Both the position numbers and the translations under genes were made by a program. Below are positions 3,094-8,758 of a DNA stretch of 41,648 nucleotides, piece by piece. Origin of the DNA: a bacterium (lineage in GTDB: Bacteria; SZUA-79; Acidulodesulfobacterales; Acidulodesulfobacteraceae); assembly GCA_021795355.1 (NCBI GenBank), contig JAJYPL010000011.1, positions 1 through 41,648 on the forward strand, in the 5' to 3' direction. Every line of letters starts with the position of its first letter. Position 1 is the first letter of the stretch. The notes beneath the pieces were generated by a model. The model did no database searches, was not told the DNA's origin, and worked only from the letters and a program-made list of their open reading frames with translations.

Positions 3094-3561
3094 ATGAAAG
3101 GAAACGAAGAAATCATCAAAAGGCTTAATTTAAGGCTGTCCGAGGAATTAACCGCAATAAACCAGTATATGGTTCATGCAGAAATGCTGGACAACTGGGG
3201 CTATGAAGAACTGCATAAGGAAGTCGAAAAAAGGGCTATAGACGAAATGAAACATGCCGAAAAATTAATAGGCAGGATACTATTCCTCGAAGGAATACCG
3301 ATAGTTTCGAATTATAATAAACTGCGTATAGGATCTAACGTCGAATTAATGCATAAAAACGATAGGGAAGCCGAAGAGGATGCGATAAAAGCGTATAACG
3401 AAGATATAAAATTTGCTGCGGAAATAAAAGACAACGGCACAAAAGATTTATTGCAATCCATTTTAGACGACGAAGAAAAACATATAGACAGGCTTGAGGA
3501 GTACCTTGACCAGATAGAGCAGATGGGGCTTGCAGTTTATCTTTCTACATATAGAAAATAA
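3094..3561 (+). CDS. bfr: Bacterioferritin
   Basis: 155 residues, the standard bacterioferritin length. It forms a 24-subunit cage that oxidises Fe2+ and stores the ferric mineral. All ferroxidase ligands fall at the canonical numbers: E18, E51, H54, E94, E127 and H130. Met52, the axial haem ligand at subunit dimers, is also present, which separates it from non-haem ferritins. AGGAGG precedes the ATG at 8-9 nt. It stands alone with an extended -10 promoter; no bacterioferritin-associated ferredoxin is adjacent. The next gene, an aldo/keto reductase, follows after 29 nt and may be co-transcribed. Confidence 0.96.
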   Translation: MKGNEEIIKRLNLRLSEELTAINQYMVHAEMLDNWGYEELHKEVEKRAIDEMKHAEKLIGRILFLEGIPIVSNYNKLRIGSNVELMHKNDREAEEDAIKAYNEDIKFAAEIKDNGTKDLLQSILDDEEKHIDRLEEYLDQIEQMGLAVYLSTYRK

Positions 3562-4640: not shown

Positions 4641-4642
4641 GG

Positions 4643-4730
4643 GAAAAAGGTGCCAGATTAATTTTACGCAATGTCTTTTCTTGTTAATCGACCTCTACGT
4701 ATGCGTAAAATAAAATCAGACACCTTTTTC
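4643..4730. repeat. 88-bp inverted-repeat element, copy 1 (REP/RAYT-like, MITE-like)
   Basis: Left arm 4643-4670 (GAAAAAGGTGCCAGATT..TTTTACGCA) and right arm 4702-4730 are near-perfect reverse complements around a 31-nt centre. A related element lies at 6324-6412 in the opposite orientation: the arm that reads GATTAATTTT is on the left here and on the right there. The centres also share GGTC-N-ATTAACA when one is inverted. No transposase lies within the element, so it would be non-autonomous. Assignment to a REP-associated Y1 transposase (RAYT) is inference. Confidence 0.75.
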
Positions 4731-4888: not shown

Positions 4889-5302
4889 TTACTGCAAAAT
4901 AAAAGGAGCTTCCTTCGTAACTAATTTAGTAAGCGAAAAATCGCCGGGGCCCATAATAAATATACTTAAAGCTATTGCGAATTCAGTTAATGCATATTCG
5001 TAGCCGCCATTCAAAATATTGAATCCGTGAGGCAGGTGCAGTAAAAATATAGCACCCAACATTACAAGCATAATATTTATCGCGCCGATTCTTGTTAAAA
5101 CTCCGCTAATCATTGCAAGACTGCCGGTGGTTTCTGCAATTCCTACCAGAATAGCAATTATTATCGGAAAATGCATGTATCCGGCAAATCCTTGAACTCC
5201 GGGTCCGTCAAACCAGTCGAAAAGTATTCCCGTTCCATGATAGAAAAAGCTAAGGAATAACACAAATCTTAAAAAGAATAATGTAACAGATTCTTTTTTC
5301 AT
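4889..5302 (-). CDS. DoxX family membrane protein
   Basis: 137 residues from the ATG at 5302, chosen over an in-frame TTG six bases upstream because GGAGGG sits at proper spacing before the ATG. Four hydrophobic segments are visible (about 8-25, 45-65, 70-92 and 103-120). The DoxX signature is present: RFVLFLSFFYHGTGILFDWF near the start, then GIAETTGSLAMISGVLTRIGA and LLHLPHGFNILNGGYEYALTEFAIAL. DoxX proteins are small inner-membrane proteins, some linked to thiosulfate:quinone oxidoreductase, others to redox stress with HxlR-type regulators. The divergent hxlR neighbour favours the second role. Exact activity unknown. Confidence 0.88.
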   Translation of the reverse strand: MKKESVTLFFLRFVLFLSFFYHGTGILFDWFDGPGVQGFAGYMHFPIIIAILVGIAETTGSLAMISGVLTRIGAINIMLVMLGAIFLLHLPHGFNILNGGYEYALTEFAIALSIFIMGPGDFSLTKLVTKEAPFILQ

Positions 5303-5370: not shown

Positions 5371-5399
5371 ATGATATTCTATTAAATGTAAATCGTCAA
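5371..5399 (-). promoter_or_regulatory. doxX promoter
   Basis: On the minus strand TTGACG (5399-5394), 17-nt spacer, TATCAT (5376-5371). The -35 is part of a 16-bp block (5395-5410) that is repeated in front of the CDGSH gene. The expected start is about 60 nt upstream of doxX. Confidence 0.6.
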
Positions 5400-5410
5400 T
5401 CAGGGATTTT
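5395..5410 (-). promoter_or_regulatory. Duplicated 16-bp promoter block, copy 1
   Basis: Minus strand AAAATCCCTGATTGAC. The identical 16 bp, in the same position relative to a -35 box, occur at 5858-5873 on the plus strand. In both places TTAAGTAT starts 30-31 bp further upstream. It includes part of the -35 and probably marks a shared regulator site. Confidence 0.7.
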
Positions 5411-5417
5411 TTTATTA

Positions 5418-5441
5418 TTAAGTATAAAAAAAGATACTTAA
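5418..5441. promoter_or_regulatory. Candidate HxlR operator (inverted repeat)
   Basis: TTAAGTAT, 8-nt A-rich spacer, ATACTTAA. It lies between the divergent doxX and hxlR promoters and touches the hxlR -35 (TTGACA at 5442). Position and a GTAT/ATAC-type inverted repeat suit a MarR/HxlR-family winged-helix dimer; binding is inference. Confidence 0.6.
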
Positions 5442-5470
5442 TTGACATTTTATATTAGAAAATGATATTA
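5442..5470 (+). promoter_or_regulatory. hxlR promoter, near-leaderless
   Basis: TTGACA (5442-5447), 16-17 nt, GATATTA (5464-5470). The predicted start falls only a few bases before the hxlR ATG at 5481, and no Shine-Dalgarno sequence precedes it, so the message may be leaderless. Confidence 0.5.
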
Positions 5471-5480
5471 TTTTATTATT

Positions 5481-5831
5481 ATGGAAAACGAATCTAATAA
5501 GAATTATTGTCCCGCGCACGAAGCTTTTAAAGTGCTTGCAAACAAGTGGTCTTTGATGATAATCAAAGAACTTTCAAGCGAAAAAATGAGATTTAACGCA
5601 ATTAAAAAAAAGATAGATGGAATTTCCTCGCGCGAACTTTCAAAAAGACTCGAAGTTTTAGAGCAAATAGGCGCCATAAACAGAAAAATCATTTCTATTA
5701 AACCTATAATGGTGGAATACAGCCTTACCGAAGCAGGCAAAGAACTTACCGATGCTATTGAAATACTGCACGACTGGACGATTAAAAATAAAAAAAATAT
5801 AAAACACATCGAAAAATTAGTCCGCGCTTAA
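5481..5831 (+). CDS. HxlR family transcriptional regulator
   Basis: 116 residues; a winged helix-turn-helix of the HxlR (DUF24, MarR-like) family. Visible features: the near-N-terminal Cys in NYCPAHEAFKVLANKWSLMII (C10), the core KWSLMIIKELSSEKMRFNAIKKKIDGISSRELSKRLEVLEQIGAI, and the wing with VEYSLTEAGKEL. The conserved Cys is the redox- or electrophile-sensing residue in studied members (YodB, HypR). It is divergent from doxX with an inverted-repeat operator between them, and the CDGSH gene follows with its own promoter carrying the same upstream block. Likely an autoregulated local repressor or activator of a small redox-stress set. Confidence 0.92.
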   Translation: MENESNKNYCPAHEAFKVLANKWSLMIIKELSSEKMRFNAIKKKIDGISSRELSKRLEVLEQIGAINRKIISIKPIMVEYSLTEAGKELTDAIEILHDWTIKNKKNIKHIEKLVRA

Positions 5832-5857
5832 GTATATAAAAAGAACCAAGTATTTTT

Positions 5858-5873
5858 AAAATCCCTGATTGAC
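5858..5873 (+). promoter_or_regulatory. Duplicated 16-bp promoter block, copy 2
   Basis: AAAATCCCTGATTGAC, identical to the minus strand of 5395-5410. TTAAGTAT lies at 5828-5835, overlapping the hxlR stop codon, 30 bp before the block (31 bp at copy 1). Here the second half site is AAGTAT (5848-5853) in direct rather than inverted orientation. Confidence 0.7.
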
Positions 5874-5898
5874 AATATATACGTAAAAACATTATATT
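5869..5898 (+). promoter_or_regulatory. Promoter of the CDGSH gene
   Basis: TTGACA (5869-5874), 18-nt spacer, TATATT (5893-5898). Consensus-like -35 with an acceptable -10. The leader is about 45 nt and ends in AAGGAGG. Confidence 0.65.
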
Positions 5899-5952: not shown

Positions 5953-6147
5953 ATGCCCAGATTAGTCAAACACGAAAAGAAACTGCCTGCTCCAATCGAA
6001 GAAAAGGACGCAAAATTTCCTATTTATGTATGCGCATGCGGTTTATCGAAGAATTTTCCGTTTTGCGACGGTTCGCACGACCATACGAAGGACGAATCCG
6101 ATAACGGAGTTTATGTTTACGAAGGAGATAAAAGAGTTAAACTGTAA
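5953..6147 (+). CDS. CDGSH iron-sulfur domain protein
   Basis: 64 residues with one complete CDGSH motif: C27-A-C29-G-L-S-K-N-F-P-F-C38-D-G-S-H42. Three Cys and one His bind a redox-active, labile [2Fe-2S] cluster, as in mitoNEET-type proteins. Bacterial single-domain versions are soluble and proposed to take part in redox or Fe-S handling. AAGGAGG precedes the start by 8 nt. It has its own promoter, whose upstream block is copied from that of doxX, so both probably answer the same signal, with HxlR between them. Partner and substrate unknown. Confidence 0.93.
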   Translation: MPRLVKHEKKLPAPIEEKDAKFPIYVCACGLSKNFPFCDGSHDHTKDESDNGVYVYEGDKRVKL

Positions 6148-6218: not shown

Positions 6219-6323
6219 AGTTCTATATAGTTACTTAGGCATATGATAATATTTATGCTGCCATCATCCCCCCTAAACCAAAAATTGCGATAGAATGTCT
6301 AAATTTTGCTGAAACGTTAAAAA

Positions 6324-6412
6324 GGAAAAGGCGTCAGATTTTATTTTCCGCATACTGTAAGGTCAATTAACACATAAAGTTTATTGCGGAAAATTAATCT
6401 GACGCCTTTTCC
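6324..6412. repeat. ~88-bp inverted-repeat element, copy 2
   Basis: Arms 6324-6352 and 6385-6412 are near-perfect reverse complements (GGAAAAGGCGTCAGATT..TTTTCCGCA). Compared with 4643-4730 the element is inverted. Several stem positions differ in pairs: TTTACGCA/TGCGTAAA there becomes TTTCCGCA/TGCGGAAA here, so pairing is kept. The centre shares GGTC-N-ATTAACA with the reverse complement of copy 1. Confidence 0.75.
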
Positions 6413-6499
6413 TGATTGAATATCTTCTTTCATATATGTTATTCTATACGCAATGAAATTAAACGATTAAATAACTATAAATCAATAAAGTCAATAAAA

Positions 6500-8047: not shown

Positions 8048-8758
8048 TTGGATCCGTTAAAAAGATTTCACAATGAAGGCTGGCATACGCCGGAAGGCAG
8101 ATTGATAAGGGAGTTCGTATTCGGAATTAACGACGGGCTAGTTACTACTGTCGGATTTATAGCGGGTGTTACTGGAGCATTGATAAACTTAAAAATTGTT
8201 TTAATGTCCGGCGCCGCGGAAATTGTTGCAGGTACGGTATCGATGTTTTTTGGCGCTTACCTTGCAACAAAATCGCAGAACGAATTTTATCAAAAAGAAA
8301 TTAACAGAGAAATCAGGGAAATTAAAGAGAATCCTGAGCATGAAATTGAAGAAATATATGAAATATATCAGGATAAAGGGTTCACGACGGAAGAAATAGA
8401 GCCTATAGTTCAAAAACTTATGTCGGATAAAAAAATACTCCTTGATTTTATGATTCAGGACGAACTTGGAATAAGCAAAGATTACTATGAAAACCCGATA
8501 AAAATAGCATCTTATACAGGATTATCTTTTTTAGCGGGCGGTATTCCGCCGCTGCTGCCTTTTTTCTTTATAAAACATTCTTTAACGGCAGTTTCGGTTT
8601 CGGTTCTTTTTACCGTTATTATTCTTGCCGTTACCGGACTTGCCAAAGCAAAAGTAACCAAGACCGGCAGATTAAAAAGCGCCGCCGAAATGGTTTTAAT
8701 AGGCGGAGCCGCCGCCGCCGCAGGGTTTATTTGCGGAAGGCTGATAGCATTAATGTGA
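8048..8758 (+). CDS. VIT1/CCC1 family Fe2+/Mn2+ transporter
   Basis: 236 residues starting at TTG 8048; the start is fixed by a perfect AGGAGG at 8036-8041, six bases upstream, with no ATG nearby. Integral membrane protein of the VIT1/CCC1 (DUF125) family, which exports or sequesters Fe2+ or Mn2+. Typical family layout: EFVFGINDGLVTTVGFIAGVTGA (first membrane pair), GAAEIVAGTVSMFFGAYLATKSQNEFY, a charged cytoplasmic helical domain rich in Glu (about 80-145) that binds metal in studied homologues, then three membrane segments ending in AAEMVLIGGAAAAAGFICGRLI. With bacterioferritin nearby it may belong to iron homeostasis. It ends two bases before the extended parS palindrome. Confidence 0.9.
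   Translation: MDPLKRFHNEGWHTPEGRLIREFVFGINDGLVTTVGFIAGVTGALINLKIVLMSGAAEIVAGTVSMFFGAYLATKSQNEFYQKEINREIREIKENPEHEIEEIYEIYQDKGFTTEEIEPIVQKLMSDKKILLDFMIQDELGISKDYYENPIKIASYTGLSFLAGGIPPLLPFFFIKHSLTAVSVSVLFTVIILAVTGLAKAKVTKTGRLKSAAEMVLIGGAAAAAGFICGRLIALM

Follow-up and report, generated by a model that had tools for sequence, protein, structure and literature searches.

Among the HxlR/DUF24 regulators, YodB and CatR of Bacillus subtilis are repressors and HypR is activated, and the operator of Staphylococcus aureus QsrR is palindromic, with GTAT half-sites; CatD, one of the products of catDE, is a DoxX-family protein. In B. subtilis, catDE is repressed by CatR and YodB together with Fur (PMC6212828), and YodB prefers the sequence TACT-N7-AGTA (PMC8063818). 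An N-terminal cysteine lets HypR, YodB and CatR sense HOCl, quinones and diamide; these regulators also respond to allicin and polysulfanes, with HypR Cys14 and CatR Cys7 being modified in the redox response (PMC6943732). Proteins of the DoxX type are part of systems for oxidative and thiol stress, and in Mycobacterium tuberculosis DoxX, SodA and SseA make up a membrane-bound oxidoreductase complex (PMC7907618). The pairing of HxlR with DoxX is already a known theme; in the locus described here, from a member of the Acidulodesulfobacteraceae, the pair is accompanied by the gene for a small CDGSH iron-sulfur protein.

Genes, promoters and surroundings

The window analyzed here is the 41,648-nucleotide stretch of contig JAJYPL010000011.1 (assembly GCA_021795355.1). 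It encodes a small membrane protein of the DoxX family (doxX, 4889..5302, minus strand; Pfam DoxX, PF07681, 3.2e-14), an HxlR/DUF24-type winged-helix regulator (hxlR, 5481..5831, plus strand; Pfam HxlR, PF01638, 1.4e-22) and a 64-aa CDGSH iron-sulfur protein (5953..6147, plus strand; Pfam zf-CDGSH, 3.7e-11). The start of doxX is placed at the ATG at 5302, TTG 5308 being also possible as an ORF start, and orthologues 78-94% identical are found in 22 of the 30 genomes of the phylum sample, which covers one family and six genera. HxlR can be aligned with the structures of YodB, QsrR, HypR and HxlR; its sole cysteine, Cys10, aligns with HypR Cys14, and an N-terminal cysteine occupies this position in all 21 phylum HxlRs. 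The cluster motif of the CDGSH protein, C-x-C-x2-S-x3-P-x-C-D-G-S-H, is intact in the window (CACGLSKNFPFCDGSH) and in every listed member of its clade. A ring-cleaving dioxygenase partner, as in a catDE-type operon, is absent from among the three genes, which are flanked by an aldo-keto reductase gene and gltX.

All three genes have sigma-70-like promoters: TTGACG-17-TATCAT for doxX (5371..5399, minus strand; 10/12, aligned across 11 species), TTGACA-18-TATTAT for hxlR (5442..5471, plus strand; 11/12) and TTGACA-18-TATATT for the CDGSH gene (5869..5898, plus strand; 11/12). The block AAAATCCCTGATTGAC continues directly into the -35 of doxX (5395..5410, minus strand) and of the CDGSH gene (5858..5873, plus strand), with zero mismatches between the copies; here the sequence-only reading, which had reported a mismatch-free duplication, was correct to the base. 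These are the only two exact copies in the 1,314,167-base assembly, where the next-best match has 2 mismatches and lies within an ORF. That reading's full inverted repeat between the divergent doxX and hxlR promoters was also recovered: TTAAGTAT-N8-ATACTTAA, at 5418..5441 with no strand assigned, a candidate HxlR operator that abuts the hxlR promoter directly and is kept in relatives sharing this intergenic region. Upstream of the CDGSH gene there is a single half-site TTAAGTAT (5828..5835, plus strand), overlapping the hxlR stop codon; the right arm has been lost and is replaced by an AGAACCA element (5842..5848, plus strand) largely kept in the window's group. The reported offsets of TTAAGTAT from the block hold as well, at 31 bases upstream on the doxX side (5441 to 5410, minus strand) and 30 on the CDGSH side (5828 to 5858). 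What is duplicated on the CDGSH promoter is thus the block and not the candidate operator, of which this promoter has the left arm only.

Because the DNA is AT-rich, the window taken alone gives no more than a suggestion. A run of at least 16 bases common to both intergenic regions arose in 9 of 3000 shuffles, an 8+8 inverted repeat turned up in 25% of shuffled versions of this AT-rich stretch, and the window has 36 pairs of repeated 16-mers where shuffled sequence has a few. It is conservation in relatives that shows that block and repeat are not products of chance.

The surroundings of the unit have features of their own. A ferritin-like protein is encoded upstream (3094-3561) and a VIT1-family transporter downstream (8048-8758), giving an iron theme around the CDGSH gene, and this order is also kept in relatives. 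Two long palindromic elements flank the unit, at 4641-4730 (AAAAAGGTGCCAGATT...) and at 6320-6415 (GGAAAAGGCGTCAGATT...GACGCCTTTTCC), the latter with perfect 18-nt arms; both resemble a dispersed repeat or what is left of a mobile element. The sequence CCCCTCCTTTTTAA lies on either side of the three genes (window 4743 and 6197) and is possibly a second repeat family bordering them.

Conservation and rearrangement in relatives

Nine close relatives with hxlR came out of a scan of species genomes, along with a tenth that has a remnant of it; fuller contigs among them have the gene order ferritin-like, aldo-keto reductase, doxX, hxlR, CDGSH, gltX, VIT1. In the aligned intergenic regions the 5' leaders have diverged, while the repeat and the hxlR -35 beside it are near-invariant and the block is retained on both target promoters, those of doxX and the CDGSH gene. 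The sequence-only reading had proposed that absence of the block from homologous loci would refute it: the block core, CCTRATTGAC, is present on 28/28 doxX and CDGSH promoters examined in genomes with a close hxlR, at loci of the window type and of sister genera, and since this alignment was anchored on the block itself the telling fact is that no promoter lacks it.

More distant loci are rearranged. An alternative layout, in which hxlR is divergent from a CDGSH-doxX operon, occurs in sister genera and in one genome of the window's genus (loci in G008, G037 and G033, and two in G038). At loci of this sister type a single repeat is shared; it abuts the hxlR -35 and is about 18 bp away from the operon -35, and the block fills the end of the gap between the repeat and the operon -35. 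The same layout is found in G016, G031, G035 and G036 with a different HxlR (~35% identical) and a two-domain CDGSH protein; their promoters have no block, and GTAT/ATAC half-sites run into the -35. The single-domain CDGSH proteins fall into two clades with 100/100 support, each tied to hxlR and doxX. In G008, whose branch is long, HxlR clusters with those of the sister genera and the CDGSH protein belongs to the window's clade; the DoxX tree, reduced to 7 rows by merging of identical ones, carries no weight here. The same three functions recur in two layouts, with two types of HxlR and with CDGSH proteins of two clades or of two-domain form, which is strong evidence for a functional link. In G040, hxlR and doxX are found with no CDGSH gene between them, suggesting that DoxX is the core target; this gene set speaks against a three-gene unit, as does the lack of hxlR in G006 and G017, which have the CDGSH gene.

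Some genomes hold partial or additional copies. G038 has several copies of the unit (L102, L115, L117, L132): two are complete, one is a CDGSH-doxX pair with no adjacent hxlR, in which the block is present and the repeat decayed, and one is an hxlR on its own next to a P-type ATPase-like gene, so that this genome offers a natural example of possible control in trans. In another genus, a C-terminal remnant of hxlR lies between sugar-epimerase-like and ion-channel-like genes (G041 C23, locus L191, 302-406) and is a pseudogene relic of the regulator.

Proposed control by HxlR and its alternatives

As judged from sequence, doxX, hxlR and the CDGSH gene are supported as a conserved gene unit with a common promoter signature, and their role as a stress-response unit is believable. 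The earlier proposal of one candidate redox regulon stands to this extent, and is weakened by the incomplete operator on the CDGSH promoter. On balance, the likelier explanation is an HxlR-controlled three-gene stress unit, with HxlR probably a thiol-released repressor acting on doxX and the CDGSH gene. As a homodimer of the HxlR/DUF24 type, carrying a single conserved cysteine near the N-terminus, HxlR would bind TTAAGTAT-N8-ATACTTAA, a site that adjoins the hxlR -35 and lies upstream of the promoters of the targets, and would most likely act as a repressor. Modification of Cys10 by an electrophile, a disulfide or a (poly)sulfide would then release HxlR, and DoxX in the membrane and the soluble [2Fe-2S] CDGSH protein would be switched on, perhaps to act jointly in a membrane-linked redox repair of thiols or quinones; the CCTRATTGAC block would mark the HxlR target promoters. 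A sulfur-stress signal would suit a lineage of acid mine drainage, which we take to be its habitat, partly from isolate names.

Whether the block itself belongs to HxlR is a separate matter. In the window's group the CDGSH promoter retains one arm of the inverted repeat, the left, so that control of this promoter by HxlR rests on the block; the block may not be an HxlR site, however, because it is absent from hxlR's own promoter. It could instead set promoter strength or be bound by a different regulator, with HxlR governing only doxX and itself and the CDGSH gene sharing nothing but the block. The missing repeat arm is consistent with such an arrangement, as is the inclusion of the -35 within the block, yet it appears rather unlikely, because the block is specific to this locus and is gone where hxlR is gone, even though the core promoter is kept.

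The latter point comes from genomes lacking hxlR. A CDGSH-gltX pair without hxlR is found in G006 and G017, and doxX without hxlR in G006 and G018; neither block nor repeat was found on these hxlR-less promoters. In all, the block is missing from 8 promoters (both CDGSH and doxX in G006, CDGSH in G017, doxX in G018, and CDGSH in G016, G031, G035 and G036), although the contrast of 28 with 8 represents fewer independent events than it appears to, the species compared being related. From -35 to -10 the CDGSH promoters of G006 and G015 are identical at 25/29 positions, versus 9/29, a chance level, in the 29 bases upstream: G006 has kept the core and not the upstream part, which indicates that block and half-site go with hxlR rather than with the core promoter, through either gain in the window's group or loss in G006. 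Ahead of doxX, G006 does have a block-like sequence with one base missing, AAAATCCTGATTCTGC, which may be a relic.

As to locus specificity, the other copies of CCCTGATTGAC checked in the phylum (including G007) all lie inside ORFs, hence the conclusion that the block is specific to the doxX-hxlR-CDGSH locus; the near-matches to the inverted repeat that were checked in the phylum also lie inside ORFs, with no sign of a larger regulon. The window's assembly, at 66% complete, limits this search, and more complete relatives agree with it. One inverted repeat, AAGTAT...GATACTT, is kept inside a ppx-like gene in several genomes (L148 2519, L157 2669, L158 2021), and is taken as coding constraint. 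The block was also considered as a degenerate HxlR half-site; its 5-6/8 match to the half-site beside the hxlR -35 is unconvincing, a likeness so weak that it neither proves nor excludes contact of HxlR with the block. Our view is that the block extends the -35 and adds a second regulator contact.

Another possibility is that HxlR is an activator: the oxidized protein, sitting at about -65, would bring polymerase to doxX and the CDGSH gene while repressing itself. Activators are known in this family, namely HxlR of B. subtilis and HypR, the latter activated by oxidation. Activation has to be considered because on all promoters the repeat sits upstream of the -35 and not over it: on the targets it ends about 18 bp upstream, a distance typical of activators and constant in relatives, and the same repeat abuts the hxlR -35. 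The target promoters, however, are near-consensus (10-11 of 12) and should need no activation, and the CDGSH promoter of the distant clade has an AAAGT-N4-ACTTT palindrome that extends into its -35, fitting repression; an activating HxlR is accordingly judged unlikely, and because of the near-consensus targets we infer repression and release instead. Finally, a copy of a promoter could arise during gene re-ordering, and the arrangement does vary between genera, but it is very improbable that the block pair was left behind neutrally when the locus was recently duplicated or rearranged and signifies no common control, because in several species the two copies within one genome are unlike and both are still CCTRATTGAC while their flanks diverge, as expected if they are maintained and not freshly copied.

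Comparison with known systems

Within a literature search that left most subscription papers outside, no report was found naming DoxX with HxlR, CDGSH with DoxX, or all three, in line with the remark in the sequence-only reading that it knew of no described DoxX-CDGSH pairing. By tblastn, distant HxlR homologues in other phyla (L018-L037) have no adjoining DoxX or CDGSH gene; none of 30 CDGSH loci sampled in another phylum lies within about 1.5 kb of DoxX or HxlR, and neighbors other than these flank two haloarchaeal CDGSH genes. The CDGSH protein as a member of HxlR-DoxX stress units therefore looks undescribed, and is so far known from this phylum alone.

To our knowledge, the small stand-alone CDGSH proteins of bacteria are mostly without a known partner or inducer. 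The repeated joining of non-orthologous CDGSH and HxlR versions to DoxX points to a concrete partner, DoxX, and a concrete regulator, HxlR, and the conserved unit also points to a class of signal, thiol-reactive or sulfur species. A bolder and more tentative reading, possible though doubtful, is a dedicated membrane-linked DoxX-CDGSH redox pair, switched by a one-cysteine HxlR through a bipartite signal of repeat and -35-fused block: in the repair of thiols, polysulfides or quinones, electrons would move between the soluble [2Fe-2S] protein and DoxX, in one direction or the other. If this is true, bacterial CDGSH proteins would gain a physiological partner and a function that can be induced.

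Each of the described systems shares part of this design. The catDE system likewise has HxlR/DUF24 regulators with an N-terminal sensor cysteine, but carries the ring-cleaving dioxygenase CatE and no CDGSH protein, and belongs to another phylum with another gene order. The half-sites differ in their order, TACT-N7-AGTA for YodB versus AGTAT-N8-ATACT in the window, so the candidate operator in the window is related in kind to that of YodB and not identical to it. QsrR and HypR resemble the window HxlR in fold and, by alignment, in the position of the sensor cysteine; their targets, in contrast, are reductases and dioxygenases, and we know of no DoxX-CDGSH pair associated with either. On two haloarchaeal plasmids (Natrinema, Haladaptatus) an HxlR gene is divergent from an SDR-DoxX-VOC operon, as hxlR is from doxX here, with an SDR oxidoreductase and a VOC protein rather than a CDGSH protein as the partners of DoxX. 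The M. tuberculosis complex differs in its partners, a superoxide dismutase and a sulfurtransferase, with neither CDGSH nor HxlR, but it is like the present proposal in placing DoxX within a membrane-bound thiol redox complex.
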